Below are positions 3,591 to 58,981 of a stretch of DNA of 64,000 nt, in pieces; position 1 is the first letter of the stretch, and each line of letters starts with the position of its first letter. The notes below the pieces were generated by a model. That model was not told the origin of the DNA, did not search any database, and worked only from the letters and a program-made list of their open reading frames with translations. Location of the stretch: NCBI GenBank assembly GCA_028691965.1, contig JAQUYE010000001.1, forward strand, positions 1 through 64,000. The letters run 5' to 3'. The DNA comes from Paludibacter sp. (lineage in GTDB: Bacteria > Bacteroidota > Bacteroidia > Bacteroidales > Paludibacteraceae). A program made the position numbers and the translations under genes.

Positions 3591-3624
3591 ACTTTATTTA
3601 ATTTAATTGTTGATATTCTGAATG

Positions 3625-3632
3625 CAAAAGTA
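3625..3632 (-). promoter_or_regulatory. -7 element for fba
   Basis: TACTTTTG on the minus strand, 35 bases upstream of the fba start, matches TAnnTTTG. Confidence 0.6.
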
Positions 3633-3805
3633 CTACTTTTTTATGGAAATGAAGCCAAACAGCACTCATTATTTATAAACTACAACATCTTTTTAAGCCT
3701 TTATGTTCATAGAGCTGCATGCCTTAACTCCTGTAATGCTAAAATGGTGATTATGTGTATAAATTCAGGAAAAATGTCGTACCTTAGCAACCCTTTTTCT
3801 CAAAA

Positions 3806-41179: not shown

Positions 41180-42550
41180 CTAAAGTTCAACAGGATACTG
41201 ATTGATGTGCATCCTTTTGGCTTTCACGTCGTGGGCATGGGTAATTTTTCTGATAAACTGATTTACCTTGTTGATCCGGAGATTGCTAATCCTGACTTTT
41301 TTAACCGGCAGTCGGACATCGCCCTTAATTTCATACACACCATCGGTGCTTTCGCAGGTTACATTTTTCATGTAAATACCTTCAATACGGGTAATACGTT
41401 CTTCATAAGTAGGTACCAGATCTTTCCACTGATAGAGTACATCAGTGTCGATTTCGAGCAGGCGCATCGTATTGCCCGAACTCACGTTTTCCATGATGAT
41501 ATTCTCAATAAAACCGCCTCTCCGGTGATTGGTTTTTATAAAGAAAAAACGATCTACTGACCCGGGAGCAGAGCAGTGGTGCATGTAGACATTGCGGATG
41601 CCTCCCGACATTTCGCTCCCGATAGCTAACAGGGCATGTCCGTTAAGGATGGTGCAGTTGCGGATGACTATGTTTTCGCAGGGTGTATTTAATCTCCATG
41701 CATCCTGATTGCGACCGGCTTTGATAACCACAGCATCATCTCCCTGATCGAACACGCAATCCTCAACAAGGAAGTTGCGACTCATCTCCAGGTCAACGCC
41801 ATCGTTATTATGTCCGTGTGCTTTTACGTTCAGCTTACGTACTACTCCTCCGTTGCACATATACAGGTGAATGGTCCAGAACGGACTGTTGCGGATGTTG
41901 AAGTCCTCCAGTAATACATTCGAACAGCGGTTAAAGTGGATAAGGTGTGGACGAAGGTTGTTGTCTCCTTTAGCCATTTGTCGCTCCTCCACCGGAACAT
42001 TGGTAGAAGCCATTGTATACAATTCCCGCAGTGCAAGCAGGTGAGGGGCCGGACGGGGGAACCACTTGCTCCAGAATTCCATTCGTGGCTGCAGTGTTCC
42101 TTTGCCCGAGATGGCTATGTTTTCACATTCAAAAGCATACACCAGAGGAGAATAATTATAGCATTCAAGTCCTTCCCAGGAGGTCATCACTGCAGGAAGA
42201 TATTCTGTTGGATGATCCGAAAAACTGATTATCGCATTCTCTTCAAGTACCAGATTCACATTGCTTTTAAAATGAATCGGGCCGCTAAGCCAGGTTCCGG
42301 CAGGTACCACAACCTTTCCGCCTCCTGAAGCATGACAGGCCTTAATTGCATCCCTGATGGCAGTGGTATTATTGAATTCTCCACCGGCTTGTGCGCCATA
42401 ATCTACAATATTAAATACTCTGTCAGGGAAGATATATACCAGTATCGGATCCATTTTAAAGGGAGCCTTTACCTTAACAGTACTGTAATTTCCTCCTGTT
42501 AGCAACATACTTACCCACAGGAGCAGGGTTGTGAAAATGATCTTTCTCAT
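41180..42550 (-). CDS. GH28 family pectinolytic glycosidase
   Basis: 456 aa with signal peptide and a right-handed beta-helix. GH28 catalytic motifs are visible as NNDGVDLEM, QGDDAVVIK near residue 272, GHALLAIGSE (a GHG variant) and FFIKTNHRRGG (RIK-like). Family members hydrolyse polygalacturonan or rhamnogalacturonan, or act on unsaturated products at the non-reducing end. Its start overlaps the HTCS stop by 4 bases, so it is co-transcribed with its likely regulator. The pectin context suggests a galacturonide or rhamnogalacturonan substrate. Confidence 0.92.
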   Translation of the reverse strand: MRKIIFTTLLLWVSMLLTGGNYSTVKVKAPFKMDPILVYIFPDRVFNIVDYGAQAGGEFNNTTAIRDAIKACHASGGGKVVVPAGTWLSGPIHFKSNVNLVLEENAIISFSDHPTEYLPAVMTSWEGLECYNYSPLVYAFECENIAISGKGTLQPRMEFWSKWFPRPAPHLLALRELYTMASTNVPVEERQMAKGDNNLRPHLIHFNRCSNVLLEDFNIRNSPFWTIHLYMCNGGVVRKLNVKAHGHNNDGVDLEMSRNFLVEDCVFDQGDDAVVIKAGRNQDAWRLNTPCENIVIRNCTILNGHALLAIGSEMSGGIRNVYMHHCSAPGSVDRFFFIKTNHRRGGFIENIIMENVSSGNTMRLLEIDTDVLYQWKDLVPTYEERITRIEGIYMKNVTCESTDGVYEIKGDVRLPVKKVRISNLRINKVNQFIRKITHAHDVKAKRMHINQYPVEL

Positions 42551-45500
42551 GAATTCATATATTTCGAAGGTGAAGACCCGAATTGTGCCTTAAAGCACTT
42601 GCTGAAATAGAAGGGATCGTTAATTCCAACAAGGTACGACACTTCAGATACATTGTATTTATAGGTTTTAAGCAGTTCGGCTGCCTTTTGCATGCGCCGG
42701 ATCCGTATAAATTCATTTGGTGAATAGCCGGTAAGGGATTTTATCTTTTTGAAAAACAGTGTCCTTCCGGTATTCAGCAAGCGGGCAAAGTCGTCGACAG
42801 TAAAGTCGGGATCCGACAGGTGTTTCTCAAAAGTCTCTTCCACCTGCTGCAGGAACCGGCAGTCTTTTTCGAGCATCATGGGCTTTTCTTCTCCTTCGAC
42901 AATCATTGCACTACAGGGTGCTTCATTTCCGGCATCCGCATCCGCATCCGATCGGGCAGGGTTGGTGGCATAGTACTGATGAAGCTTCTCCCGTTTCTCG
43001 AGTAGTTTGTTGATTTGCAACATCAGGAACTTCATGCTGAATGGTTTGGTAATATAGGCATCAGCTCCGGCTTCTACTCCTTCCGACACATGTTCATCCG
43101 ATATATATGCAGTCAACAGGATTACAGGGATATGGCAGGTCTCAAAATCATCTTTCAGTTTCTTAGTGAGTTCAAACCCGTTCATTCCCGGCATCATCAC
43201 ATCACAGATGATAAGATCCGGATCGTCTTTAGCACTTCGTTCAACACCTTCGTTACCTTCAGCAGCGGTAATAATATCGAAATAGGGATTCAGCTTGTTG
43301 TCGAGGAACTCGCGTATATCATCGTTATCGTCGATGATAAGAATTTTGAATTTATGTCCGGCTACCGGCACCAGGGGAACCAGCTCTAACGATCCTTCCG
43401 ACAAATCTTCTTCAATAAATTCGGAGATACTGTATACTTCGCCCGATTCCGAAGTAGTAACCTTTACTTCTTCATTCACAAAATCATCCGGTTGATATAC
43501 CCGGTTGTCGAGTGGTAGTTCTACTGTAAAAACAGAACCTCCTCCTTCGTTTTCACGGAAGTTTACTTTGCCCTGGTGAAGGGCAGTGAACTCGCTTACA
43601 AGGTGCAAGCCAATGCCGGTACCTTGTTGTGAGAAATTGATTTGCATAAACCGGCTGAATAGTAAATCCTGTTTTTCCTTTGGTATTCCTATTCCATTAT
43701 CGGCTACCGAAATACGGATTACGTGCAATTCCTGATCGGCTTCTGCTTCCAGGGTTATTTGTCCACCACGCGGAGTAAACTTAAGGGCATTGGAGAGCAG
43801 GTTAAAAACGATCTTATCCACTTTATTGGTGTCGAAATAAACCGGCAGGGTTTGCTCAGAGCAAATGAAGTTGTAACGGATATTGGTTTTAGCAGCTACA
43901 TTTTCAAAGCTCTTAAAGATATTTTCGAGGAAGACAACCGCATCGACCCGTTGCAGGTTGAGCTTCTGTTTGTTGTTCTGAAGTTTTCGGAACTCGAGCA
44001 GCTGTTCGATAAGACGCATCAGATGAGAAGTGTTTATGTCGATGTCGTTGACAACTTTGCGCAGGCTCTCGCTCATCTTTGGCTTCAACTCCGCTAAGGT
44101 ATCGACACTTCCTTTTATAAGGGTTAAGGGAGTTCGGAACTCATGACTTATATTTGTAAAGAAGCGGAGTTTATAATCCGTCAGCTGACGTTCAACGCGA
44201 ACTGCATTATCCAGTCGGTAGAAATTCAATGCGATGCGTATCCCGGCATACACCGCGGCAATAATCAACAGGAAGTAAATCCAGTAGGCAAGCGGCGATT
44301 TCCAGTAAGGTGGCCGGATGGTGATAAGCAATCGTGTTTCATTTTCGTCCCAAATCCCCTCACTATTGATACTTTTCACCCGAAACACATACTCCCCCGG
44401 AGGAACATTCCTGTAGGTAGCCATATTATTCTCGCCGGTACTTATATTCCACCTGCGTTCGTAGTTCTCGAGCATATACATAAACTGATTCGAACTGGGA
44501 TCTTCAAAATCAAGGGTAGAGAACTCCACATGGAAAACCTGATCGGAATGACTCAGGCTTACTTCCTTCGCAAAAGTCGAGGAGGTTTTCAGTGGTGCCT
44601 TACGCGGGGCAATAAGGGCAGGATCGTTAAATACCGAAAATCCGGTGATAATCACCTTATTGGTGCGGTTGTTTAAGTTCTGCACATCCGAAGGATGAAA
44701 CACATAAAAGCCGTTGAGTGAACCCCATATCATTCGCCCGTCCTTACAGGTAATGCCGGCAGTTTCGGTAAAGATATTCGCTGCAAAGTCGTTGGAGAAT
44801 TTATAGAACTGGAAAATGGTGGTAGCCGGATTAAATTTCAGCAATCCCCGTTCGGTGCCTATCCAGAGATTCTGTTCGGTGTCTTCCTGGATGGTAACTA
44901 TATTGTCGTTGGCAATTCCCTGCGGGTTTTTAAAAACCCTGAATTTGCCGTTGCCATTCGGACTCACCCCCGTAAACAGGTTCAGTCCACCTCCTGCCGT
45001 TGCCAGCCATACATTTGCATTCGCATCTTCAAAGATATACCGTACTTCAGGATTACTCAGACTGGATTCGTCCTGCGAATCGAAGGTAAAGTATTCGTAC
45101 GCATTTTTGTCGGCCAACAAAGAGTCGGGATAAAACCGCATTACCCCATTGGAAGTCCCCACCCACATTTTTCCTTTGCTATCGAGGAAGATATGCCGGG
45201 CAAAGCGATTCCATTCGTCATTTTCGAAAAAGCTTTTAAATCCGTCGCCCACCCGAACGGATACACCGCCTCCAAAGGTGGCAACCCACAACCGTCCTTT
45301 TCGGTCGGCTGTAAGTCCGAATACATTATTATCGCTTAAATCGTTGTGTTCGCCCTGGTTACGGTAGTTTTTACTAACCGTCGTCTTTCCTTCTTCCAGG
45401 GCAAGCACTCCGTTTCCACGTGTTCCTATCCATAAGGTACCCTGCTTATCCTCGTACATCGCGTACACGCTGTAACTATTCTCAAACACAGTGGTACGTG

Positions 45501-46914
45501 TCCTGAAGTCGGACGAGTACCTGTACAGGTTACCGGCCTTGGTTCCTACCCAGACAGAACCGCGGCGGTCTTCAAAAAGCGTACGGATTACATTTCCGTT
45601 TCTTACCAGATTATCAGGATCGGGAAATACCTGCTGAACATTCCGGTTGGTAAAGCTCAGCTTGTTAACACCCATATTCTCGGTTCCTACCCACAAATGA
45701 CCGTAACTGTCGGTCAGCAACGTAAGCAGGTAGTTAGAGTTGAGGTTGTCGGGATAGCGGCTGGAAGGATAATGTTGCAGTACACCTGTTGTCCGGTTGT
45801 AGGAGAACAAGCCATTTCCATAGGTAGATATCCACACATTATTATGCTCATCGGCGGTAAACTGGAACCGTTCGTCGTCGATCAGTTTCATGAGTGCCGG
45901 AGGTACCAGTTGCAGCTGGAAGGTGTTGAGCTGTTCGTCGATCGACCACACATTCCCCGAGAAATCGGAAATCCAGATTCCGCCCCGTTTATCGTTGTGA
46001 AACCCTGCATTGCCCCGAATGGTGGCTTCGAACACATCGTCGCCCCGGATAATCTTTCCTGTTTCGGTATTCACTATAATTATTCCTTTGCTGATCGATG
46101 AGAGGAGCAGGAAGTGATTTCCCATCGAAGTGGTACGATGAATATCGGTGAGTTGGGTTTCAACTACAGCAGGGGCAAAGGTATTAAGTGCCAGACTGAA
46201 ATCGTAGATGCGGCCGTTCTCTGAAATCAGGTATACGCTGTTGCCCAGTTCGTACGCATTTATAAACACCTCATTACGGGTAGCTTTACGCAGATGCACT
46301 AATTGTCCGTCGGGAGTCAGGCGCACCAATCCCGAAGCAGTGAGTATCCAGGTGTTTTTATTCTTATCCTGAAGAATCTGGTTGATGGTGTTGGAGGGGA
46401 GTTTATTCGGACTGGCATCTTCGGCATAATGGGTAAGCAGGATATCATCTTCCTGAAAGGTAAACTTAACACAGCCGTCGTAGGCACTTCCGAGCCACAC
46501 ATTCCCGTCCTTATCTTCATAAAAGGAATTGTGCTTGATAAAGAAATCTTCTTTTTTGTCGAATATAGGGAGGAAACTTTCCGTTTTCGGATCGTAACAA
46601 TGGAAGATGTCGCTATAGGTGCGCACCCAGATATGTCCGTGCGAATCTTCAATTAATTCTTTTATCTTACCACTGGTAAGGGAGTTCGGATTGCGTGTTT
46701 CGGGAATAATGGTTTTCATCCGGATGCCGTCGTACCGGTTCAATCCGTTGAGTGTTCCGAACCAAAGAAATCCGGTACGGTCGAGCAGCATACATCGTAC
46801 CGTATTGTGCGATAGTCCCTCGTTGGACGTGATATGTTCGATGGTAGGATGCGTTTCGGCACTATGTAGTAAAAGAGGTAGTACAAATAGTATTGCTAAC
46901 AGAGTCTTGCGCAT
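42547..46914 (-). CDS. Hybrid two-component system sensor-regulator (HTCS)
   Basis: 1455 aa single-protein signalling system. Signal peptide; about 14 periplasmic beta-propeller repeats (for example FLWFGTLNGLNRYDG, GHLWVGTENMGVNKL); Y_Y_Y domain (~770-850, TYRNVPPGEYVFRV); one membrane helix (~870-892); histidine kinase with FFTNISHEFRTPLTLIKG near 920 and FNLLSNALKFTPRGG; receiver with DVMMPGMNGFEL near 1238; C-terminal AraC-type HTH (from ~1350). HTCS proteins sense oligosaccharides released from the cognate glycan and activate the locus. This one probably senses a rhamnogalacturonan fragment. A weak -7 (TATCTTCG, 46937-46944) lies upstream. Confidence 0.96.
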   Translation of the reverse strand: MRKTLLAILFVLPLLLHSAETHPTIEHITSNEGLSHNTVRCMLLDRTGFLWFGTLNGLNRYDGIRMKTIIPETRNPNSLTSGKIKELIEDSHGHIWVRTYSDIFHCYDPKTESFLPIFDKKEDFFIKHNSFYEDKDGNVWLGSAYDGCVKFTFQEDDILLTHYAEDASPNKLPSNTINQILQDKNKNTWILTASGLVRLTPDGQLVHLRKATRNEVFINAYELGNSVYLISENGRIYDFSLALNTFAPAVVETQLTDIHRTTSMGNHFLLLSSISKGIIIVNTETGKIIRGDDVFEATIRGNAGFHNDKRGGIWISDFSGNVWSIDEQLNTFQLQLVPPALMKLIDDERFQFTADEHNNVWISTYGNGLFSYNRTTGVLQHYPSSRYPDNLNSNYLLTLLTDSYGHLWVGTENMGVNKLSFTNRNVQQVFPDPDNLVRNGNVIRTLFEDRRGSVWVGTKAGNLYRYSSDFRTRTTVFENSYSVYAMYEDKQGTLWIGTRGNGVLALEEGKTTVSKNYRNQGEHNDLSDNNVFGLTADRKGRLWVATFGGGVSVRVGDGFKSFFENDEWNRFARHIFLDSKGKMWVGTSNGVMRFYPDSLLADKNAYEYFTFDSQDESSLSNPEVRYIFEDANANVWLATAGGGLNLFTGVSPNGNGKFRVFKNPQGIANDNIVTIQEDTEQNLWIGTERGLLKFNPATTIFQFYKFSNDFAANIFTETAGITCKDGRMIWGSLNGFYVFHPSDVQNLNNRTNKVIITGFSVFNDPALIAPRKAPLKTSSTFAKEVSLSHSDQVFHVEFSTLDFEDPSSNQFMYMLENYERRWNISTGENNMATYRNVPPGEYVFRVKSINSEGIWDENETRLLITIRPPYWKSPLAYWIYFLLIIAAVYAGIRIALNFYRLDNAVRVERQLTDYKLRFFTNISHEFRTPLTLIKGSVDTLAELKPKMSESLRKVVNDIDINTSHLMRLIEQLLEFRKLQNNKQKLNLQRVDAVVFLENIFKSFENVAAKTNIRYNFICSEQTLPVYFDTNKVDKIVFNLLSNALKFTPRGGQITLEAEADQELHVIRISVADNGIGIPKEKQDLLFSRFMQINFSQQGTGIGLHLVSEFTALHQGKVNFRENEGGGSVFTVELPLDNRVYQPDDFVNEEVKVTTSESGEVYSISEFIEEDLSEGSLELVPLVPVAGHKFKILIIDDNDDIREFLDNKLNPYFDIITAAEGNEGVERSAKDDPDLIICDVMMPGMNGFELTKKLKDDFETCHIPVILLTAYISDEHVSEGVEAGADAYITKPFSMKFLMLQINKLLEKREKLHQYYATNPARSDADADAGNEAPCSAMIVEGEEKPMMLEKDCRFLQQVEETFEKHLSDPDFTVDDFARLLNTGRTLFFKKIKSLTGYSPNEFIRIRRMQKAAELLKTYKYNVSEVSYLVGINDPFYFSKCFKAQFGSSPSKYMNS

Positions 46915-46936
46915 GATATAAGGGTTAATTCAGTTG

Positions 46937-46944
46937 CGAAGATA
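46937..46944 (-). promoter_or_regulatory. Weak -7 element for HTCS-GH28
   Basis: TATCTTCG on the minus strand has one mismatch to TAnnTTTG, 22 bases upstream of the HTCS start. Weak promoters are usual for constitutively expressed HTCS genes. Confidence 0.4.
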
Positions 46945-47083
46945 GCAAATTTCATCCTTTTTGCTCTAAATGCTGCATATAAATCGTGAAAAGTGTACTC
47001 TATTCCATTTTACGACATCGTGTTTATACCTTATTTTGTAAACTGATAAAACTACAAAACCGGTAGCCGACAACTCACCAGTA

Positions 47084-47096
47084 GGTGTCGGACACC
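47084..47096. promoter_or_regulatory. GGTGTCGGACACC palindrome upstream of GH2
   Basis: Perfect 6-base arms around a central G, ending 16 bases before the GH2 ATG. An overlapping wider repeat (CCGACA 47067-47072, TGTCGG 47086-47091) is also present. It may be an operator or a leader hairpin. A TTATTTTGTAAA stretch at about 47032-47043 upstream is shared with the PL11 leader. Confidence 0.45.
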
Positions 47097-47112
47097 ACAA
47101 ATCTGTTATTCT

Positions 47113-50004
47113 ATGAACTACACGAAAACCGTATTACTTGCTTTGTTGCTGACCTGTATCCTGCCCGTAGGGAGTAGTCAGTCGATTCCACTCAACGGCA
47201 ACTGGAAGTTTGCCCTCGACCCCGATCTGAAGGGCCTTGATGAGCAGTGGTTTCAGCAGGAGATGAAGGAGGAAGTACGACTTCCCGGCTCCAATGTAGA
47301 AAATCGCAAGGGTTTTGACCCTACGCTGGATACCCGTTTTACGGCAAGTATTTACGATAGCTCCTGGTATCATAATCCTCATATGGAGAAATACCGCCAG
47401 CCCGAAAATTTTAAAATGCCGTTCTGGCTCACGCAGCTGAAATATTTCACAGGCTATGCATGGTACCAGCGCGAAATCACTATTCCTGCCAACTGGAAAG
47501 GCAACCGTGTTCAGCTCTTTCTCGAACGGCCGCATTTTATTACCCATATCTGGATTGATAACCGGGAAGTGGGGCGGTATGTGTCGCATAACACTCCTCA
47601 TAGTTACGACCTGACTGCTTTTGTTGAGGCCGGAAAATCTTATCAGCTTACCCTGTGTGTCAACAACCGCCTCAAGGATATGGATGTGGGCACTAACTCT
47701 CATTCGGTAACCGATCATACGCAAGGCAACTGGAACGGAGTGGTGGGTCGCATGGAATTACAGCTAAAACAACCGGTGCATACGGATGAAGTGCAGGTCT
47801 ATCCCGACCTGGCACACCAACAGGCGCTTGTTAAACTTACCATTGCTAACCCGCAACTGTTGAATACAAAGGGTAGTGTGGTGCTGAAGGCTACCAGTTT
47901 CAACAGTACTAAGAGTCATCGTTTTAGTGCTTCCCTCGATTTCGAACTGACTGCCACCGATTCGACCAAACAGCTCGAACTGCCTTTGTTGCTGGGTGAT
48001 AAGATGCAGACCTGGGACGAGTTTGATCCTGCTTTGTATCGCTTAACTGCGTATCTTACAACACCAGCCGGGGTGGATACGATGGAGACTCAGTTCGGTA
48101 TGCGCGAAATCAGTATCGAAGGGAAATGGATCTATATTAATGGTCGTAAGACACTTATGCGCGGTACGGTAGAGAATGCGCTGTTCCCGCTTACAGGCTA
48201 TCCTCCGATGGATGTGGCCTCCTGGGAGCGTGTGTTTCGTATCTGTAAGACCTATGGGCTGAATCACATGCGTTTCCATTCGTACGGACCGCCCGAAGCA
48301 GCGTTTAAAGCGGCCGACCTGGTGGGTATTTACCTGCAGCCCGAAGGTCCGGCATGGCCCAACCACAGTACGCAGCTGGGTAGAGGTTATCCTATCGATA
48401 CCTACCTGCTCGAGGAAACCAAACGAATGGTAAAACACTACGGTAATTATGCCTCGTTTGTAATGATGGCAGCCGGTAACGAACCCCGGGGTAACTGGGT
48501 GTCGTGGGTAGGTAAGTTTGTGGATTACTGGAAAAAAGCGGATCCGCGCCGTATCTATACCGGTGCCTCGGTAGGAGGAAGCTGGGCATGGCAACCCAAA
48601 AGTCAGTACCATGTAAAAGCCGGGGCGCGCGGACTCGACTGGAGTCGCAACCGACCCGAATCCAATTCGGATTATCGCCAGTGGATTGATACAGTAAGTC
48701 AGCCATTTATTTCACACGAAACCGGTCAGTGGTGCGTGTTCCCCGATTTTGAAGAGATTAAAAAATACACCGGTGTTACCCGTGCCAAAAACTTTGAGTT
48801 GTTTCAGGAACTCCTGGGCGATCAGGACATGGGACAGCTAAGCCGGGAGTTCCTGCACGCTTCCGGTAAGTTGCAGGTAGTATGTTATAAACACGAAATT
48901 GAAAAAACCCTTCGTACTCCCGATTATGCCGGATTCCAGTTGCTGAGCCTGAACGACTTCTCCGGACAGGGGACTGCTCTGGTAGGCTTGCTGAATGCGT
49001 TCTGGGAAGAAAAGGGCTATGTTACTGCTCCCGAATTCCGTCGCTTCTGCTCGCCAACAGTGCCGCTTATTCGTACCGGTAAGTTTGTGTATAGGAATAA
49101 CGAGCGACTGCAAGCCAGTGTCGAGTTGTCGCATTTTGATGCGCTGCCGCTCGAAGATGTACGACTTCAAATGACCCTGCGCCGCAAGGATGGGCGTGTT
49201 GTTCATGAACAACAGCTAACCCGCATGGATGTGCCGATTGGAAGTAATATCCCTGCCGGAACGATCGACCTCGACCTGTCGGCATTTACTGCTCCGGTTC
49301 AATTGAACCTCGAAATTCGCATCGAAGGTACAGGGGTGATTAACGACTGGAACTTCTGGGTGTATCCGGCCGTACAGGAATTACCCGCGGAGGATGATAT
49401 CTATATTGTACGGGGTGAGCTGGACGACAAAGCTCGTAAGCTGCTTTCCAAAGGGGGTAAGGTGTTGCTGATGACAGCAGGTAAGGTAAGCTACGGGAAA
49501 GATGTGGTTCAATACTACCAGCCTGCCTTCTGGAATACTTCCTGGTTTAAGATGCGTCCTCCGCATACTACCGGAGTGTTGATCCGCAATGAGCATCCCT
49601 TGTTTAAGGACTTTATTACCGACAACTGGGCTGATATGCAGTGGTGGGAATTGTTGAACAAAGCACAAACAATGCAGCTCGATGATTTCCCGAAAGGCTT
49701 CCAGCCGGTGGTTCAACCTATCGATACCTGGTTTATTAGCCGCAAGTTAGGCATGCTCTTCGAAGCGAAAGTAGGAAAAGGTAAATTGCTGATGACCAGC
49801 TTCGACCTGGAAAGTAATCCCGAAGAACGTCCGGTTGCACGGGCACTCTACCAGTCGGTACTGCGCTATATGCACTCCGGCGACTTCAACCCGGGCCAGG
49901 TGGTACCGCTCAAAGCAGTTACCGGCATCTTTACTAAAAAAGCCGAACCCTATAATTTCTATAGCCGCACGAGTCCCGACGAGCTGAAACAGGGAAAAAT
50001 ATAA
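47113..50004 (+). CDS. GH2-family exported glycosidase
   Basis: 963 aa. A signal peptide ends at VGSSQ. The sugar-binding jelly roll (GYAWYQREITIPANW, HITHIWIDNREVG) and Ig-like domain precede a TIM barrel with the acid/base Glu in MAAGNEPRGNW near residue 455 and a likely nucleophile Glu in SHETGQW near 535. The C-terminal ~230 residues include a flavodoxin-like region (LLSKGGKVLLMTAG, GKGKLLMTSFDLESN), seen in other large Bacteroidetes GH2 enzymes of pectin loci. The activity is probably beta-galactosidase or beta-glucuronidase type on rhamnogalacturonan side chains (inference). Divergent from the HTCS gene. Confidence 0.88.
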   Translation: MNYTKTVLLALLLTCILPVGSSQSIPLNGNWKFALDPDLKGLDEQWFQQEMKEEVRLPGSNVENRKGFDPTLDTRFTASIYDSSWYHNPHMEKYRQPENFKMPFWLTQLKYFTGYAWYQREITIPANWKGNRVQLFLERPHFITHIWIDNREVGRYVSHNTPHSYDLTAFVEAGKSYQLTLCVNNRLKDMDVGTNSHSVTDHTQGNWNGVVGRMELQLKQPVHTDEVQVYPDLAHQQALVKLTIANPQLLNTKGSVVLKATSFNSTKSHRFSASLDFELTATDSTKQLELPLLLGDKMQTWDEFDPALYRLTAYLTTPAGVDTMETQFGMREISIEGKWIYINGRKTLMRGTVENALFPLTGYPPMDVASWERVFRICKTYGLNHMRFHSYGPPEAAFKAADLVGIYLQPEGPAWPNHSTQLGRGYPIDTYLLEETKRMVKHYGNYASFVMMAAGNEPRGNWVSWVGKFVDYWKKADPRRIYTGASVGGSWAWQPKSQYHVKAGARGLDWSRNRPESNSDYRQWIDTVSQPFISHETGQWCVFPDFEEIKKYTGVTRAKNFELFQELLGDQDMGQLSREFLHASGKLQVVCYKHEIEKTLRTPDYAGFQLLSLNDFSGQGTALVGLLNAFWEEKGYVTAPEFRRFCSPTVPLIRTGKFVYRNNERLQASVELSHFDALPLEDVRLQMTLRRKDGRVVHEQQLTRMDVPIGSNIPAGTIDLDLSAFTAPVQLNLEIRIEGTGVINDWNFWVYPAVQELPAEDDIYIVRGELDDKARKLLSKGGKVLLMTAGKVSYGKDVVQYYQPAFWNTSWFKMRPPHTTGVLIRNEHPLFKDFITDNWADMQWWELLNKAQTMQLDDFPKGFQPVVQPIDTWFISRKLGMLFEAKVGKGKLLMTSFDLESNPEERPVARALYQSVLRYMHSGDFNPGQVVPLKAVTGIFTKKAEPYNFYSRTSPDELKQGKI

Positions 50005-50006
50005 TC

Positions 50007-50214
50007 TTTAATTGTTAATTGTTAGTTGTTAATTGTTAATTAGGACGTGTGAGTAGTAGGTGGTTTTTGTGGAAGTCTGCGATTTGACAATTGATTAGTT
50101 GGTTTTTACATTTAGTGAGGTAGTAAAAGGAGAAAAAGCAATGCGTTTTTTCTCCTTTTTTAATACTCTTCTATCCATTCCCCAGCAATTAACAATTAAA
50201 AATTAACAATTAAA
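50007..50214. repeat. AT-rich inverted repeat around the GH2 terminator
   Basis: TTAATTGTTAATT-type motifs occur twice at 50007-50042 and in the reverse orientation twice at 50187-50214. They flank ~145 bases that hold the GH2 terminator. No open reading frame lies between, so this may be a small non-coding repeat or miniature element. Confidence 0.6.
50125..50160 (+). terminator. Terminator of the GH2 gene
   Basis: AAAAGGAGAAAAA pairs with TTTTTTCTCCTTTT around a short GC-rich loop and runs into T residues, about 120 bases after the GH2 stop. Confidence 0.75.
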
Positions 50215-50238
50215 AAAACAACCACATGTGATTGTCCG

Positions 50239-50408
50239 GCATATGTCATATGATAGACCCGCACATGTCATATGACGATTCCGCACATGTCATATGATGA
50301 TTCCGCATATGTCATATGATGATTCCGCACATGACATATGATGATCTCGCACATGACATATGATGATTCCGCACATGACATATGACGATCATGTACATGA
50401 CATAAGAT
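50239..50408. repeat. 22-bp tandem repeat array with palindromic cores (array 2)
   Basis: Seven good units and one decayed unit start every 22 bases (50239, 50261, 50283, 50305, 50327, 50349, 50371, 50393). The core is CAYATGWCATATG, a 6-1-6 palindrome. Units 1-4 have T in the centre and units 5-8 have A. Linkers are mostly ATGATTCCG-like. The array lies between the 3' ends of convergent genes, like array 1 at 2357-2483, but the sequences differ. It occupies much of the gene-free gap 50005-50476. Confidence 0.93.
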
Positions 50409-50455
50409 ATTCAGTTACGTTTGGTGTGGTGACTGAGAAAACTAAGTCAGCCTGA

Positions 50456-50481
50456 CAAAAAGGTCTAAGCTTTTGCTTAGA
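50456..50481 (-). terminator. Terminator of the small orphan unit
   Basis: On the minus strand TCTAAGC-AAAA-GCTTAGA is followed by CCTTTTTG. It overlaps the stop of the small ORF. Confidence 0.65.
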
Positions 50482-50818
50482 TTGAGTAGAGGGGGTAGGC
50501 TTTAAAATTACTAAAGTGTTTGCAGCAGTACGTAGTGAGTTCATGGACTGCTACAGCGGTCATGGATACATGATGGGTTCTTTTAACTGTAAAAATAGAG
50601 AAGACCGACTTTATGGTAAATGTTAAAATATTATTTAACAAACCGGATTGAACGCATGTAAACTGTGCAACTCCTATGTATGCAACGAATTGATAAACCA
50701 GTATTGGTAGAGTCATACGACGAACAACCGGCATCGGTTGTGTCCTGGTTTGACATTTGTTACCCGATACCAGTGGTACCACACTAATAAGAACAGTTAA
50801 GAGGAGGAGTGTTATCAT
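50477..50818 (-). CDS. Small hypothetical protein with one or two membrane segments
   Basis: 113 aa from the ATG at 50818 (the track starts at 50881, upstream of the promoter). I recognise no family. Hydrophobic stretches are ITLLLLTVLISVVPLVSG at the N-terminus, a possible signal or anchor, and LPILVYQFVAYIGVA. Four cysteines lie scattered in the rest. The case for a real gene is the setting: a perfect -7 element just upstream, a palindrome at 50864-50880, and an intrinsic terminator at its end. It could instead be a ~360-base regulatory RNA. Confidence 0.38.
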   Translation of the reverse strand: MITLLLLTVLISVVPLVSGNKCQTRTQPMPVVRRMTLPILVYQFVAYIGVAQFTCVQSGLLNNILTFTIKSVFSIFTVKRTHHVSMTAVAVHELTTYCCKHFSNFKAYPLYSI

Positions 50819-50823
50819 GGGGG

Positions 50824-50880
50824 CAAATATAGCGCATCTAATCAGCTGGAAATTGCATATTTGTGTGCAATAATTGCACA
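50824..50880 (-). promoter_or_regulatory. Promoter and operator-like palindrome of the small unit
   Basis: TATATTTG (minus strand, 50824-50831) is a perfect -7, only 5 bases from the ATG, which implies a leaderless or near-leaderless message. TGTGCAAT-A-ATTGCACA (50864-50880), with perfect 8-base arms, lies 32 bases upstream of it, where an activator or repressor would bind. Confidence 0.6.
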
Positions 50881-50954
50881 TTTGTGGGTTTTTCAGGCTT
50901 CAGGGGTGAGCTATTTAAAGAGTGTCCGGAAAGGTAGAGCGATTTTAATTGTTT

Positions 50955-53900
50955 CTATTGCTGTTTATAAATTCTGAAATCACTGATTTCTGCACTTCGT
51001 GATCCCATCAGGCGAATGCCGATGCGACCTGTCGACAGGCTTTTAATTTCGGGCGAAGTCCAGTGGTACAGTTGTGTTCTGTTTGCCGTTTTCACTTCCA
51101 TCCAGATGGTATCCTCCTTTCGGATTAGCGTTAAGTGATGGCGCACTCCGGGTTCGAAGAAGCCGGTATTCAGGTATTCGGGTTGCAGGTCAGTGCCTGC
51201 GAGTCCTTTTCCTGTGCCCGGCTGGTACCTGCGGGCACGGATATAATCGGCATCCGGTTGGTGATTATCGTTTTCGAAGGCGGCAAAACTTACATGAAAA
51301 AGGTTCATGTTATTGAAGTACTGTTTCATAGCGGGAATCTCCCGGAGTGAATTCCACCGGCTGATGTCCGTTTCGTAGGGTGTCACTCCGCTTCCCTGTG
51401 CAAACAGGTAGAGAATAGTTACGTAGCGGGTGGCATAGTCGCGCCGTATATAATCGAACTCGATTTTAAGATCACCGCTGTATTCATTGACCGACCATAG
51501 CACCGAATGATCCGCATCGCTGGCGGGTGTGGGTCCTGCATCGAACAACAGACGGTTGCGGTTGGTAGTGAGCTTCAGTTTTTTCCCGTCGCTGAACCAG
51601 TTCTTCGTAGTTCTGAACCTGTCACGGAAGATAAGCTTACTAAAGTCCTGCTTCAGTTCGCCGAATGTTTTCTTCTGTTGCTGCAAACTACTGTCGGGTA
51701 GAAAGTTTCCGATTAGCTCCGGTAAAATAATGGCATTCAGTCCCCATTGCGACGTACTGTTAGTGCTCACCCACGGATTTTCATGCAGCAGTGTATGTAC
51801 TACAGGAGGTTGTACCGGAACCGCTCCGTAGATGGAAGGAAAGGCAGTGCGTGGCCGGAAGCGCGGATACAGGAACTCGCTCCAGGCGCGGGCAGCCAGT
51901 GCGGAGTCGTTGAGCGCAGCGGCAGCGTAGGCGGTCATTCGCGGGTTCAGGAAGTTGATATCACCCAGCTTACGATTGGCAGTAGTACGTTGCGGATCAT
52001 CGGCAGGCATGCTGTAGTACTTGCCGTACTCTACGAGGCTTTTCGTGAATACCGGATGGTCGATCATATCCTTAAGTTCGGTAAGGAGCTCAAAGCCACC
52101 CATGATGGTTGCCAGATGATTCTTGTTGGTGACTCCCTCTTTGCCATCGTACCACAGTTTGCCGGTTGCCGGGTCGTAACTTAAACCATTCGGACCGGTG
52201 AATAGTCCGTCGGGCAACGCTGCCAACCCGTTTAATCCGGTAATTAGTTTATCACGGTAGACTGTGTTCCCCGTGCGTTCCCACTCAGTCATCCAGTTGC
52301 CTGCCAATGCCAGCCAGTCGGGCCCCCAGCGTAGGCGTGTCGGACCGCCATAAGGGAATTTTTCTTTAGGTTGGGCAATTCGCAGCGGTTCAAACTCCAT
52401 CATCGCCTTTTCAACGTCGAGGGCTTCGCGCATCAGGTCACCGCTTCGTTCGTCGGTAGTCAGGTAGTAGTAAAAGCGCTTCCACGATGCCTGTCCGATG
52501 CGTGCTTCTTTAGCACCGCATCCCCAGTGCGATACATTGTGGCGGGTACCGAGTCCTTTCATTGGTCCGATATGATAGGCGTCCACTTCGCCCGTATGCC
52601 GGGTCATGGCCTCTGCCATCCGGAAGATATCCGCCCTGCCGGTTCGCAGAAACGAATACCACAGCCAGTTGTTGGGTGCCAGTTCGGTATTGGCCCAGGC
52701 ATAGCCTCCTATATCATACTTCCAGCTATGGCGCGAAGGATCGTAGCTATGCATTACATCTCCGTAATTCCAGAATCCGTACCACTGATGTTCTTCTATG
52801 GCACGCTGGTAAAAATGAAATGCACTGTCGAGCTGGGCTTCCATCCACCGGCGGGTAGGGTTGGTGTAGTCGGGCAGGCTCCAGGTGCCGAAAGCCCTGA
52901 CACGGTGCAGGTAGGCAGGTACCGGCATCAGGCGACTAACAGCTGTTGTGTGTGCAGCCATGCCGGTAAGTTGAGCCGAAGAAGGGAGCGTATCACCGAT
53001 GAAAAGGGTAAGTTCATGTGTTCTACCCACTCCATAAGGCGTGCTTAGTCCCGGTTGAACATCTTCGTAGGTAGCGTCGAGGTCGTGGGCAATGGTATCG
53101 TAATGCCTCAGGTCCATGGGTTCGGCATCGGGCGACCAGAACCAGCTGCGGACGATGGCTTGGGAACCGCGGGCTTCCATGATTTCCATGGAAGCAGGGA
53201 AGGATTGCCAGAAGTCCTTCATCGCCAGCAGTACAGAGCCGGATACATCGCCTGCCAGAACCGCTCCGTTGGATCGGCTGCCGGTAGTAGCCTGTAACCA
53301 CGAACTACGGGATTGCGTTTGTTTTTGGATCGTATAGCCCCCGGGATGCAATTGCGTTAGTTTATAGTTATTCCACGAAGGCAGGTGTTGTACCCAGGTA
53401 AACGCCGGTTGCTCGTCGGGCGTAATAGCCGGTATGGCAGTCCCGGTAGCCTGTTCCATGGCTACATTTCCCACACCCTTTAATCGCAGCGGGTAGCGGG
53501 TAACCAGGGGCTGCACGGCCTCTCTCCAGATTCCACCCTCAGCAGTAGTAAAACCCACATGCCTGTTGTACAAAGCTTCACGGAAAGGGACGGCAAACTC
53601 AACACCCATACTTCCTATAAAATCAGTTTCCTGATCGCCGTCGTACACAAACGAATGTGTCATCTGCACAGTGCTGATTCCCTGGTAGAAGTACAACCGA
53701 AGAGTAAACGGAAACAGCGATCGTTTGGCATCAGGAGAACGGTACTGCCCGTTCAACCGTATAACAGCCCGTACCGGTCCCGATTGTTCGACGGTGAGTT
53801 GTTCGATAGTACCCGTGAGCGGCAGTTCCCGTAAGCGACGCAGCGATCCGCTTTCCGGGTTTCCGGTATACAGCGATGCGATCAGCTTTCCTGAGCGGAG

Positions 53901-54335
53901 TAGTTCCTTACCACCGATACCTGCCGTTTCGAGAAAGGTAGTACCGCTGTTATTTAGACGGTATTCCACGTTGGAATGGGATATAATCGTCTGATTACCT
54001 GTAGTGCGTACCGACAGCGACGCTCCTGCAAGCGGTGTGTCGCTTGCCTCAAGAAGTAGCGGAGTACCCTGAAGACCGGAGGCTGCAAAGCCCATCCATT
54101 TTACCGATCCATCCGGCCAGAAGGCCAGCGGCCAGGATTGAACGGGATGTTGCACCTTGGCAGCCGTTGTTACCACGAAGTGTTGATCTTTCGCCACTTT
54201 CCCTTTTTCGAAAGGGACACCCCAGCTGGTGCCGGCGGGCAGAGAAGGGGCATCGCCTACCCAATGCAACTGAACGGTTTGGGCCAGGGCGGTAAAGCCA
54301 ATTGAAAGACTCAGGATCAGCAGATAGTTGCGCAT
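50955..54335 (-). CDS. PL26-like exo-rhamnogalacturonan lyase with C-terminal DUF1961-like domain
   Basis: 1126 aa. The signal peptide (LLILSLSIGFTALAQ) is followed by the N-terminal beta domain (PAGTSWGVPFEKGKV, WPDGSVKWMGFA) and alpha-barrel (YGFWNYGDVMHSYDP, HNVSHWGCGAKEARIGQ, GPDWLALAGNW) of PcRGLX/YetA-like exo-rhamnogalacturonan lyases, grouped in PL26. The last ~200 residues (LIFRDRFRTTKNWFSDG, DLKIEFDYIRRDYATRYVTILYLFAQ, GRIGIRLMGSRSAEISDFRIY) look like the DUF1961 concanavalin-type domain of YesU. It should trim rhamnogalacturonan I from chain ends, complementing PL11, which lies 4 bases upstream in the same operon. The family call rests on pattern recognition only. Confidence 0.75.
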   Translation of the reverse strand: MRNYLLILSLSIGFTALAQTVQLHWVGDAPSLPAGTSWGVPFEKGKVAKDQHFVVTTAAKVQHPVQSWPLAFWPDGSVKWMGFAASGLQGTPLLLEASDTPLAGASLSVRTTGNQTIISHSNVEYRLNNSGTTFLETAGIGGKELLRSGKLIASLYTGNPESGSLRRLRELPLTGTIEQLTVEQSGPVRAVIRLNGQYRSPDAKRSLFPFTLRLYFYQGISTVQMTHSFVYDGDQETDFIGSMGVEFAVPFREALYNRHVGFTTAEGGIWREAVQPLVTRYPLRLKGVGNVAMEQATGTAIPAITPDEQPAFTWVQHLPSWNNYKLTQLHPGGYTIQKQTQSRSSWLQATTGSRSNGAVLAGDVSGSVLLAMKDFWQSFPASMEIMEARGSQAIVRSWFWSPDAEPMDLRHYDTIAHDLDATYEDVQPGLSTPYGVGRTHELTLFIGDTLPSSAQLTGMAAHTTAVSRLMPVPAYLHRVRAFGTWSLPDYTNPTRRWMEAQLDSAFHFYQRAIEEHQWYGFWNYGDVMHSYDPSRHSWKYDIGGYAWANTELAPNNWLWYSFLRTGRADIFRMAEAMTRHTGEVDAYHIGPMKGLGTRHNVSHWGCGAKEARIGQASWKRFYYYLTTDERSGDLMREALDVEKAMMEFEPLRIAQPKEKFPYGGPTRLRWGPDWLALAGNWMTEWERTGNTVYRDKLITGLNGLAALPDGLFTGPNGLSYDPATGKLWYDGKEGVTNKNHLATIMGGFELLTELKDMIDHPVFTKSLVEYGKYYSMPADDPQRTTANRKLGDINFLNPRMTAYAAAALNDSALAARAWSEFLYPRFRPRTAFPSIYGAVPVQPPVVHTLLHENPWVSTNSTSQWGLNAIILPELIGNFLPDSSLQQQKKTFGELKQDFSKLIFRDRFRTTKNWFSDGKKLKLTTNRNRLLFDAGPTPASDADHSVLWSVNEYSGDLKIEFDYIRRDYATRYVTILYLFAQGSGVTPYETDISRWNSLREIPAMKQYFNNMNLFHVSFAAFENDNHQPDADYIRARRYQPGTGKGLAGTDLQPEYLNTGFFEPGVRHHLTLIRKEDTIWMEVKTANRTQLYHWTSPEIKSLSTGRIGIRLMGSRSAEISDFRIYKQQ

Positions 54336-54339
54336 GGTG

Positions 54340-57300
54340 TTAGTATTTAACGATAGGCTTTGTAAACGAATAATCCTTGTGTTGAATTTTCACAAGATAG
54401 CTACCTGCAGGTAAATGACCGGTTTGTACGACGATAGTCTGCACATCCCTGTAATCGCCGGTGATTACCTGCGCACCGGTAACTGTATATACACTCACCT
54501 GAACTGAGCTGGTTGGCTGATTCAGTTGCAGGGTAAACTGATCCTGCACCGGGTTGGGATACAGTTGCAGGAGGTCGGAAATCGAAGGCAGACCGGTGGC
54601 GGGTACAACGCGGAGAACACCCTCCGATTCGAAGGTCGACAGATCCCATTCCAGTCCGGAGCCCGGTACAGCAGGACGAATTTCGGAAGGAATTCCTTTC
54701 ACCGGGCCATCAATCAGTTTAAACTGACTACCGGCAACCAGCGCAGTGGTTTCGTCGGTGTTAATCTGAAGAATACCCTGCATCACTAACGAGTCGCCCA
54801 TTGCCAGCTGATCATGAGTGTCAGTTGCGATATCCATCACCAGGAACGATCCCGGCATTAGCTGCGTACGTTTGTTAAGGGTGAGTTTGCCGATTTCTCC
54901 GCCCGGAGCTAACTCCCCGCCGGCTTCGATGGTTACCTCGCTGTCGAGTCGGCCTGTGCCGCCCAGACTTGCATCGGAAAGTACGGTCACTGCTCCGCTA
55001 CCCGTTCCACTTCCTGTATTGTTCATGATCATGAGCTTCCCTTCGGCCACTACGGTAGTTCCGCTGTAGGTATTTGCATTGGTAAGCGTCAGTATTCCGG
55101 TTCCTGTTTTTCGGATGGCGGCTTTTGCGCCGCTACCGCTGTATTGCTTGTCGCTTATTAACCCGAAGAAGGTGGAGTTATTATTGCGAGCACCTATTTC
55201 CCAGGTTATTGTACAGATTCCGGTACCACCGGCACCCAGTTCCGACCGTGTAAATCCGGCCAGTTCGCCGATGGGTATGGTTACGTTGGAAGTAACCGGA
55301 TACATCATGGTCACATTATTGTACAGGTTTATTTTGGCACCTTCGTATCCGTTGGCGTTATACACTACGAAATAACCTCCGTCGGCATCGGTGGTTACGT
55401 TGATGGTTCCCCTGAATCTGGATACGTTAGCCGAAAGGATGTTGGCAGTAAAAGGAGTGAAATAACTTAAGGTACCCTCGCCGGTTATCGAACCTGAAAT
55501 CATCGAACGTCCGTCGACTATCAACGTTCCACTGGCTCCGGCCGGTATTTTAAGGTTCCAGTTGCTGGTGTTCGAACTTGCGGTGCTGTTGTACATGGCA
55601 ATAGTACCTCCCATCAGGGTAATGGTATCGCCCGAACCAAATCCGGATATATTGGCAATATCGGAAGTTAAACCGATAGTACCTCCCAGGATGGTGGTAC
55701 CACCCGAGTACGAGTTGGCTCCTGCGAAGGCAATACGACCGGCCCCTTCCTTGGTTAGTCGTCCCGGCCCTGAAATCTGGCCGGTAGTTAATACTGTTGA
55801 GCTACTACCCACACTGAGGCTTCCTCCCTTTTCACCGAGACTAATCGCGCGATCGGTGGTGGTAGTGGCACCGGTATAATGCAGCTTTCCACCGTTGAGC
55901 CGGATGTTGGAAGAAGTCCGTGAAGCAGCTCCGATAGGAGAGCTGACACCTCCGTTGGGAAACTTGTTAAAGTCGATACTTCCGCCTTCAACCAGCAGCG
56001 GGCCGGTAAAGCTGTTGGTAGTCGAGATGGTCATTCGTCCGTTACCCTTTTTGGTAATACCTCCTGTTCCGCCAATCGATCCGCTGCCGGAGAAGAAGAA
56101 GTTGTTTTCGGCATCGACGAAGATATGAGCCGGGTTCACGTTGTCGCTCACCAGTATTGATCGTTCGCTGGTTTCATCGCTGAACAGCACAGAGTCGTTG
56201 CCATTAAACACCCTTGTTTCGTCCGAGAATTTCCAGTTAGAAGTGCTGCCATTATCCCAGCGGTTATCAACAGCACCTGTCCAGGTAAGAATGGCCGGAG
56301 CTGACACCTTTAGCCATACACTGTTGTTTTCATATACCAGACTGTAGCTCAGGTAGGAAGGAACGCCGGTAATAGCTATTTTTGATAGTTCGCCGTTCAC
56401 TGTACCATTGCATACAAGCAGGGCATAATTGCCCGGTACAAGCGGTTCGTCGGTAGCACGAATTTCAAATTCGGTTGCTTCGCTGAAGGTCCAGTCGGAG
56501 CCTATAAGGAGGATATCACCGGCAAGAACCTTATCCTCCGATACAGTAATATCAAACACATACTTCACCTTTCCGGTACTTACCAGTTGGTCGTTAAAGC
56601 GCATGCTCCCTGTTTCGCCGATGGAGGCTCCGGGTTCAAGCACCGACAGATTACCAGCATGAACGGTATTCCCGAAGGTACCGTTTCCTGCCAGTGTTGA
56701 GAAGGAGTACAGGTACACTTTACTGTTGGTAAGTTCGCCATTATTCACCAGCATCCCGTTCCACACCGAACTACTTCCGGTGAACGAATGTGCCTGTCGG
56801 ATGAAAAGCGTACCGCTACCTGTCTTTTTCAAGGCGGTAGGGCCTGTAATGGTACCGCTCCCTTTCCAGTCGACCGAATAGGAGCTGTTTACAAGGATAT
56901 CCGACGGACTAAGTGTTCCGTTGAGTGTTAACTCGCTGTTTTCTCCGACGGTGAAATCGAATACTACAGCATCATTCTGCTGAAAACTGCCGGCCTGGTT
57001 GGTTTTGTCGGTCCATGCAGCAGTAGTACCTACATCCCACACTCCGCCCTTGTTCCATCGTTTAGCACCGATATATACAGGAGATGCCGGAGGGGTATCC
57101 ATATCACTTCCCATATAAAAACCTAAATGGGGAGGCTGATTGTAGGCCGTGTTTTGCCAGGCAATAGCTGCCCGGTAAACCGGGTCGTGCATCAGGGTAT
57201 ACTGTCGTACATTCGTTGGGATGGTGGTAGTATACACCCGTAAAGCTTTATTATCGGCTGTACGGAAAACCACCTCTTCGCGCCAGTCGCCCAGCAAGTC

Positions 57301-58884
57301 GGCCACCAGTCCGGGCGTTGATTTAGTGCCATTGTTGGAAGCACACTGATTAGCCGAAAGCAGAACACCATTTGGGTATTTTGTGATGGTAGTGCCATCC
57401 AGTAATTCATCCTCAGCGTCGCCATCCCAATAAATACGGAAATTAATAGAAGGGCGGGTAGCCGACACCTGCATGCCTGCTGCATTCCTGATTCCACCGG
57501 TTGCGCCGCTCCACATCTCGAAACTTCTGTTTCCTGCCACCAGATTAGCAGCCATCCCCCGTCCGTTGTCGGTTCCTGTATAGGTTCCCCAAATAATTTC
57601 GCCGGTACGGGCATCGTGCATTTCTTCGCCGTAGGCAGCCGTTTTGGATTCATGAACGGTCCATAGTTCCAATCCTTTCCGTTGCGGGTCAAGGTCGCTT
57701 AAATGCATGGCATCCCCATGTCCCAGTCCGGTACGATACATTAATTTGCCATCGTGGTCGACAGCACCGGCACCCCAAATTATTTCATCAAAGCCATCAT
57801 CGTCGACATCGCCTATACTCATGTTATGATTACCCTGACCGTATAAGCCTGAACCGGAGTTATTTCCGGAGTCGTAGGTCCAAACAGGAGTAAGAGCGCC
57901 ATTGCGGAAGTTCCAGGCAGCAATAACAGCACGGGTATAATACCCGCGGGCCATAATAATACTCGGCAGAACTCCGTCGAGCCAGGCAGTGCCGGCCAGA
58001 AACCGATCCACCCTGTTGCCATAATTATCGCCCCATGAAGATACGTTACCGCGGGCAGGGTTGTAGTTGGCCGTAGCCAGTTCCTCGCCGGTAAGTCCGC
58101 TGAACACAGTAAGGTATTCGGGTCCCGATAAAACATATCCTCCCGAGTTACGGTAGTCGGCCGAGTGACTTGCGGTAGCGGCAGGGCCTTTACGAATAAA
58201 TGCGCCGGTACCGTCTTTAGTTCCCGGAGCTGTCTTGCACACAATTTCCGCTTTCCCGTCGCCATCGTAGTCGGCCACCTGAAACTGAGTATAGTGAGCG
58301 CCGGCCCTTATATTTTTTCCAAGGTCGATACGAAACAGGAAAGTACCATCCAGTTTGTATCCGTCGATATACACATTGCCTGTATGCCCGCTATGAGCAT
58401 TGTCCTTCGCATTGGAGGGATCCCATTTAACAACGATGTCCAGGTTTCCGTCGCCATCAAGATCGCCCGTGCTGCAGTCGTTCGGACTGAAATAGCAACT
58501 GCTGCCGTCGGGCATCTGAATAGTGTTCGGTACATTCATCGGGATGTCGAAATAGGGGGAAGTCAGCACCGCTGCCGAATAAGCCTCACCGGTTTCGGTA
58601 CCATTAACGAGTGTTTTTACTGTATATTCAGTTGCAGAACTTGCCTGGTCGGTATAATTTGTAGCACCGGTCAGAGCTGTTTCGGTGATCTTAACCCCGT
58701 CGCGGTATAAATGGAAAGCGGTCTGTTCCGGATCAGAACCCAGCAAGCGCCACGAAAGAAAAACCTTGTCGGATGAAACCCTAACGGCTACCAGTCCGCG
58801 CGACAGATTTTCCATTATTCGTTGAGAGGATGCAAAGCAACTGATCAATAAAGCCAGCTGTACTACAATAATTCGTGTCTTCAT
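54340..58884 (-). CDS. PL11 rhamnogalacturonan lyase with beta-strand-repeat region and T9SS domain
   Basis: 1514 aa. The signal peptide (VQLALLISCFASSQ) is followed by a PL11 rhamnogalacturonan lyase, about residues 25-620 (MENLSRGLVAVRV, LSWRLLGSDPEQTAFHLYRDG, DCSTGDLDGDGNLDIVVKWDPSN, VADYDGDGKAEIVCKTAPG). The DxDGDG motifs bind calcium. Typical PL11 enzymes stop near 620 aa. Here ~800 more residues of passenger-associated repeats follow (GTGILTLTNANTYSGTTVV, KEGAGRIAFAGANSYSGGTT), as in autotransporter stalks. A T9SS domain ends it (LQLYPNPVQDQFTLQL, PAGSYLVKIQHKDYSF). The ATG at 58884 gives a proper signal peptide; the track start at 58974 does not. It should cut rhamnogalacturonan I at the cell surface. 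Confidence 0.88.
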   Translation of the reverse strand: MKTRIIVVQLALLISCFASSQRIMENLSRGLVAVRVSSDKVFLSWRLLGSDPEQTAFHLYRDGVKITETALTGATNYTDQASSATEYTVKTLVNGTETGEAYSAAVLTSPYFDIPMNVPNTIQMPDGSSCYFSPNDCSTGDLDGDGNLDIVVKWDPSNAKDNAHSGHTGNVYIDGYKLDGTFLFRIDLGKNIRAGAHYTQFQVADYDGDGKAEIVCKTAPGTKDGTGAFIRKGPAATASHSADYRNSGGYVLSGPEYLTVFSGLTGEELATANYNPARGNVSSWGDNYGNRVDRFLAGTAWLDGVLPSIIMARGYYTRAVIAAWNFRNGALTPVWTYDSGNNSGSGLYGQGNHNMSIGDVDDDGFDEIIWGAGAVDHDGKLMYRTGLGHGDAMHLSDLDPQRKGLELWTVHESKTAAYGEEMHDARTGEIIWGTYTGTDNGRGMAANLVAGNRSFEMWSGATGGIRNAAGMQVSATRPSINFRIYWDGDAEDELLDGTTITKYPNGVLLSANQCASNNGTKSTPGLVADLLGDWREEVVFRTADNKALRVYTTTIPTNVRQYTLMHDPVYRAAIAWQNTAYNQPPHLGFYMGSDMDTPPASPVYIGAKRWNKGGVWDVGTTAAWTDKTNQAGSFQQNDAVVFDFTVGENSELTLNGTLSPSDILVNSSYSVDWKGSGTITGPTALKKTGSGTLFIRQAHSFTGSSSVWNGMLVNNGELTNSKVYLYSFSTLAGNGTFGNTVHAGNLSVLEPGASIGETGSMRFNDQLVSTGKVKYVFDITVSEDKVLAGDILLIGSDWTFSEATEFEIRATDEPLVPGNYALLVCNGTVNGELSKIAITGVPSYLSYSLVYENNSVWLKVSAPAILTWTGAVDNRWDNGSTSNWKFSDETRVFNGNDSVLFSDETSERSILVSDNVNPAHIFVDAENNFFFSGSGSIGGTGGITKKGNGRMTISTTNSFTGPLLVEGGSIDFNKFPNGGVSSPIGAASRTSSNIRLNGGKLHYTGATTTTDRAISLGEKGGSLSVGSSSTVLTTGQISGPGRLTKEGAGRIAFAGANSYSGGTTILGGTIGLTSDIANISGFGSGDTITLMGGTIAMYNSTASSNTSNWNLKIPAGASGTLIVDGRSMISGSITGEGTLSYFTPFTANILSANVSRFRGTINVTTDADGGYFVVYNANGYEGAKINLYNNVTMMYPVTSNVTIPIGELAGFTRSELGAGGTGICTITWEIGARNNNSTFFGLISDKQYSGSGAKAAIRKTGTGILTLTNANTYSGTTVVAEGKLMIMNNTGSGTGSGAVTVLSDASLGGTGRLDSEVTIEAGGELAPGGEIGKLTLNKRTQLMPGSFLVMDIATDTHDQLAMGDSLVMQGILQINTDETTALVAGSQFKLIDGPVKGIPSEIRPAVPGSGLEWDLSTFESEGVLRVVPATGLPSISDLLQLYPNPVQDQFTLQLNQPTSSVQVSVYTVTGAQVITGDYRDVQTIVVQTGHLPAGSYLVKIQHKDYSFTKPIVKY

Positions 58885-58981
58885 GAATGCAATATTAATT
58901 AGATTTACAAAATAACCTTTTTCTTTCATAGTATACAATAGACAGATGTCCAATTTGTGGGGACGAGCGTTCACAATTGAT

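Follow-up and report, generated by a model that had tools for sequence, protein, structure and literature searches.

Array 2, a tandem array at positions 50239-50412 of the window (the whole 64,000-nucleotide stretch of Paludibacter sp. contig JAQUYE010000001.1, assembly GCA_028691965.1, that was analysed), forms the downstream part of a cassette of about 0.9 kb that is dispersed in the genome and in which a shared promoter and a small gene with a hydrophobic leader precede the array. The proposal developed below, to which we give roughly even chances, is that array 2 forms part of a genome-specific, MITE-like cassette and that a dimeric DNA-binding protein recognises its units as sites in double-stranded DNA, one every two helical turns or so.

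Array 2 consists of eight 22-bp units with the core CAYATGWCATATG, which when read from 50239 appear as seven good units and a degenerate last one, with no strand assigned. Tandem Repeats Finder (TRF) places it at 50239-50389 or 50239-50412 (period 22, 6.9-8 copies) with a score of 216, against a top score of 58 for periods of at least 15 when the window was simulated 60 times under a dinucleotide model, bearing out the seven to eight units, starting every 22 bases, described in an earlier sequence-only reading. The palindromic core of that reading is likewise recovered as a near-palindrome, with 5.0 of 6 pairs at the best centre; this level is reached in 69 of 5000 column permutations, and the palindromy of array 2 taken alone is only moderately unusual, not overwhelming. 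The centre base is T in units 1-4 and A from unit 5 onwards, and this switch is exact in the sequence. It had been taken to mean that the core orientation was inverted mid-array, but the A-centre units match the T-centre units better directly (16.5 of 20 positions) than as the reverse complement (12.2 of 20), so in array 2 only the centre base has changed. In three other copies of the array (L012, L014 and L016), the second block fits the reverse complement better.

As proposed earlier, array 2 lies between gene 3' ends, namely those of a GH2 gene (plus strand, ending at 50004) and of a small minus-strand ORF (50477-50818), the latter absent from the sequence-only reading. On the GH2 side, a hairpin AAAAGGAGAAAAAGC...GCGTTTTTTCTCCTTTT (50126-50162, strand unassigned) also adjoins the array at L009, L017 and L076, as judged by sequence reading and local alignments, and is flanked by short AT-rich inverted repeats detected by TRF, (TTAATTG)n at 50008-50041 and (CAATTAA)n at 50186-50213.

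The further arrays that had been anticipated in the same genome (3.04 Mb in 167 contigs, 89% complete) are present. A search with array 2 identified 14 additional places, where the fetched copies show longer conserved flanks, and a search with the conserved flank identified elements whose arrays carry other cores, for example CACATCTCGTGTG or CACACCTTGTGTG, giving totals of 19 arrays of the array-2 type and 19 promoter-plus-ORF copies. Among the arrays, L022 is short and L013 lacks the promoter end within its contig; among the promoter-ORF copies, L071 lacks an array-2 array. On the minus strand of the window, the cassette begins with two operator-like repeats spaced by 21 bp (50853-50891; family consensus TTGNCCACAAWTGTGCAATT), followed by a promoter box TATATTTG resembling the Bacteroidetes -7 element (50824-50831), the ATG at 50818, the ORF down to 50477, a hairpin and the array. 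The promoter-ORF-array order is common to 19 copies, and in nearly all of them, including the window copy, the box lies 5 (once 6) bases upstream of the ATG. The hairpin, read from the sequence as CTAAGC-AAAA-GCTTAG followed by ACCTTTTT (50455-50480, minus strand), is terminator-like and sits at the ORF stop; such a hairpin with a T-run separates the ORF from the array in the window copy and in several others (e.g. L011, L014 and L019-L022), not in all.

At the cassette end, a terminal palindrome around ATCGTAAATTTACGAT is present in 8 copies. Comparison of the two ends by eye, with the 21-bp repeats at one and this palindrome at the other, showed no matching inverted ends, and neither a target-site duplication nor long terminal inverted repeats nor a transposase was identified for the cassette. 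For the close copies L019-L021, the alignment covers the cassette and stops outside it, which suggests spread as a unit. The cores drift within single arrays (L015, L019 and L020), with their symmetry largely kept. When ORFs are called in a simple way and without curation, about 13 of the 19 array-2 arrays lie between convergent genes and none clearly between divergent ones, a 3'-end setting due in part to the cassette itself, since every copy comes with a small ORF directed toward the array. At L071 (G000:C72:5500-8800, positions 861-1740), the cassette promoter and ORF are followed by other palindromic sequence and then by an array of the unrelated array-1 family (described below), which replaces the array-2 array.

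The small ORF in the window encodes a 113-residue protein with the hydrophobic leader MITLLLLTVLISVVPLVSG. Its family is open in 19 of 19 copies, over 82-186 codons, whereas the remaining five frames of the same DNA accumulate 66-172 stops each, and the openness of the frame therefore appears to be under selection. The dN/dS values between the closest ORF copies (0.7-1.0) are weak support for a selected protein sequence. The small proteins have little in common beyond the leader, matched no family in Pfam or NCBIfam, and the AF2 model of the small protein is confident for the leader helix only and poor beyond it. The operator family pattern has 16 matches in this genome, the window's own copy being too diverged for that pattern. 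One of these sites (C156:76760-76801, within L073, G000:C156:74700-77700) stands without an array cassette and precedes a gene for an HU-like DNA-binding protein (PF14848 plus DUF4469), followed by a gene for a 95-residue membrane protein and a lysozyme-like ORF.

The cassette is specific to this genome among the relatives searched. Array-2 DNA had no match in 39 relatives (23 congeners among them), the promoter module gave just three short, weak and unconvincing matches in 47 congeners, the operator pattern was found in 0 of the 47 congeners and 0 of 392 other genomes of the order, and plasmid and phage collections contained no similar DNA. The closest congener, Paludibacter sp. 47-17, has the same gene order (fasciclin, RGL11, PcRGLX, GH2, HTCS) with GH2 81% identical, and its PcRGLX-GH2 gap is array-free and 57 bp long, compared with 950 bp here. 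The congener G041, which may be the same organism as Paludibacter sp. 47-17, has the same short gap. Because the segment is multi-copy, an insertion in the present lineage is a simpler reading than a deletion in the relative. The surrounding region of the window (41180-58974) is a pectin (rhamnogalacturonan) degradation locus, containing genes for GH28, a hybrid two-component sensor, GH2, a PcRGLX-like protein and a family 11 lyase.

Among known elements, the closest likeness is to BrickBuilt of Porphyromonas gingivalis, a MITE with a 23-nt minisatellite and IS5-like ends, described as non-coding and reported to have promoter activity (PMC4596501). Both occur in Bacteroidales as a spacerless tandem repeat of about 23 nt (unit 1 being shorter in the cassette) within a larger dispersed element with its own conserved leader and tail, and both comprise about 19 non-identical, intergenic copies confined to one species or its nearest relatives. 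By contrast with BrickBuilt, the cassette has a 22-nt unit of unrelated sequence, a conserved promoter and ORF in every copy, and no IS terminal inverted repeats that could be seen by eye at its ends. Since BrickBuilt is described as non-coding and as having IS-like inverted ends, the cassette is classed here as a variant of the same kind and not itself as a BrickBuilt element. Tandem repeats of 22, 23 and 41 nt are also reported in P. gingivalis, the 41-nt repeat in MITE464/PgRS (PMC4596501); this set of periods matches the 21-23 and 41 bp found in the genus (see below), a likeness by period only, the sequences being unrelated. The P. gingivalis work was the only literature found on such arrays in Bacteroidetes.

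The main rival to the proposed role of the units is a neutral minisatellite in a MITE-like element, in which the cassette would be selfish or decaying repeat DNA, the array a functionless product of slippage, and the 21-22/41 period a mutational bias of tandem duplication. We consider this possible, though short of probable. It accords with the species restriction and varying copy number of the cassette, with the decay of units toward array ends and the drift of cores, with the 47 of 47 congeners that do without it, and with the description of BrickBuilt as a MITE carrying a minisatellite (PMC4596501), but neutral decay does not readily account for a core symmetry that survives sequence change, an ORF that stays open across all the diverged copies, or an order of T-centre then A-centre units that is kept across loci. 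A transcribed array, whose units would fold one after another into hairpins (5-bp stem, 3-nt loop) and stabilise or terminate the transcripts of genes at their 3' ends, is improbable. The gene 3'-end position would suit it, and the -2/+2 pair of the core, which changes in step from TA to CG, is what an RNA hairpin would also predict; however, core mismatches of the A.C type (91 cells) are about as common as G.U (80 cells), the -4/+4 pair varies independently, in the window and several copies the ORF and the array are already separated by the terminator-like hairpin, and an Rfam search of the window gave no match.

REP/BIME elements (PMC3733652) resemble the present arrays in their short palindromic units, intergenic 3' setting and many copies, and the units of array 1 end in GTAG, a tag known from REPs (PMC3733652). 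That a RAYT (Y1) transposase made the arrays, as REP/BIME-like repeats, is nevertheless very unlikely, because the genome yielded no Y1 transposase: PF01797 had 0 matches in this 89% complete assembly, while the same family turned up in 5 of 14 reference genomes searched as a control. In addition, the long head-to-tail arrays differ from the usual REP layout, and PMC3733652 names no GTAG REPs in Bacteroidetes.

The best fit is a double-stranded DNA site bound by a dimer of a putative protein and phased at about two helical turns. Across 134 distinct units, the core is symmetric, C.A and G.T mismatches are equal at -4/+4 and there is no strand preference, as expected of a DNA site and not of an RNA hairpin, and the symmetric core recurs at a fixed spacing of whole helical turns, as in a helix-phased protein-binding array. 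Plasmid iterons and centromere arrays are direct repeats of about 20-22 bp, helix-phased for cooperative protein binding. Their likeness to array 2 is in the way of working only, array 2 differing in its roughly 19 chromosomal copies beside a small ORF, with no replication or partition gene linked. On the dimer-site reading, the cassette would have spread as one unit and its array would have grown by slippage or unequal exchange; copies of the putative dimeric protein would occupy the units, as sites in double-stranded DNA, at intervals of about two helical turns and so line up on one face of the helix, and such phasing would explain why periods of about 21-22 bp (or 41 bp) recur in the genus.

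The other array of the window, array 1 (2360-2489; six units of period 22 by TRF, units CTACATTGCSRATGTAG, strand unassigned), is flanked by cdaA and by a class II aldolase gene and shares no core sequence with array 2, as the sequence-only reading had stated. It belongs to a separate 22-bp family of 17 loci in this genome, which lacks the cassette and any common gene and is absent from 47 congeners. Its units are CTACATTGCGAATGTAG and CTACATTGCCGATGTAG, the two sub-types standing mostly in one order (exceptions L082 and L084); at L080 and L086, the units fall out of the 22-bp register by a few bases where CATTGCGAATG units give way to CATTGCCGATG. By the same simple, uncurated ORF calls, at least 6 array-1 arrays lie between convergent genes and none clearly between divergent ones. 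At L088 (G000:C129:21900-23900, positions 925-1038), an array-1 array begins about 7 bp past the stop of the genome's only other PF14848 HU-like gene, which may be a coincidence. In the closest congener, a 73-bp tandem array (L170, G041:C31, positions 3019-3777) lies downstream of the cdaA orthologue.

Whether the period is general in the genus was surveyed in a small sample of 1.58 Mb from this genome (window included) and eleven congeners, counting intergenic tandem arrays of at least 3 copies, with crude gene calls and with overlapping 21- and 42-bp rows counted as the shorter. The periods found were 14 (1 array), 16 (3), 21 (6), 22 (2), 23 (1) and 41 (3), with none at 17-20, 24-40 or 42-150, placing 12 of the 16 arrays at 21-23 or 41, or 10 of 14 when the two 22s, both from this window, are left out. 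The sequences are unrelated between loci and genomes. For example, the orthologous GH2 gene in one congener is directly followed by an unrelated array with a 21-bp period and about ten units (GTATGACCTTCMGGTRTSATA; L151, G058, positions 4463-4672); the 200 kb sampled from the closest congener, G041, contained no such intergenic array. Many of the surveyed arrays are hardly palindromic, so it is the period, not palindromy, that recurs.

The earlier interpretation as a whole is thus partly supported. Its suggestion of a general mechanism that builds or uses 22-base palindromic arrays, rather than spread of one repeat, gains from the recurrence of unrelated arrays of similar period in congeners, but array 2 itself appears to spread within a dispersed cassette that supplies a promoter and a gene. 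The two unrelated 22-bp families do coexist, both multi-copy (19 arrays and 17 loci) and mostly at gene 3' ends, and the sample survey shows periods clustering at 21-23 and 41 with sequences differing by locus; the palindromic part of the claim does not extend to the congeners, several of whose arrays are barely palindromic. We suggest, tentatively, that members of the genus repeatedly build intergenic arrays of unrelated sequence and nearly fixed unit length (21-23 or 41 bp, i.e. two or four helical turns), that the conserved trait may be the spacing, and that helix-phased binding or an array-building process may make or select it, packaged here with the gene for a fast-evolving small protein.

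The 19 cassette copies reveal a family of small proteins that evolve very fast and share a common operator. If spacing and not sequence is what is kept, the arrays would constitute a natural series, unrelated between species, for studying what builds or reads helix-phased repeats in Bacteroidales, and BrickBuilt and the 41-nt repeats of P. gingivalis may be instances of the same phenomenon.
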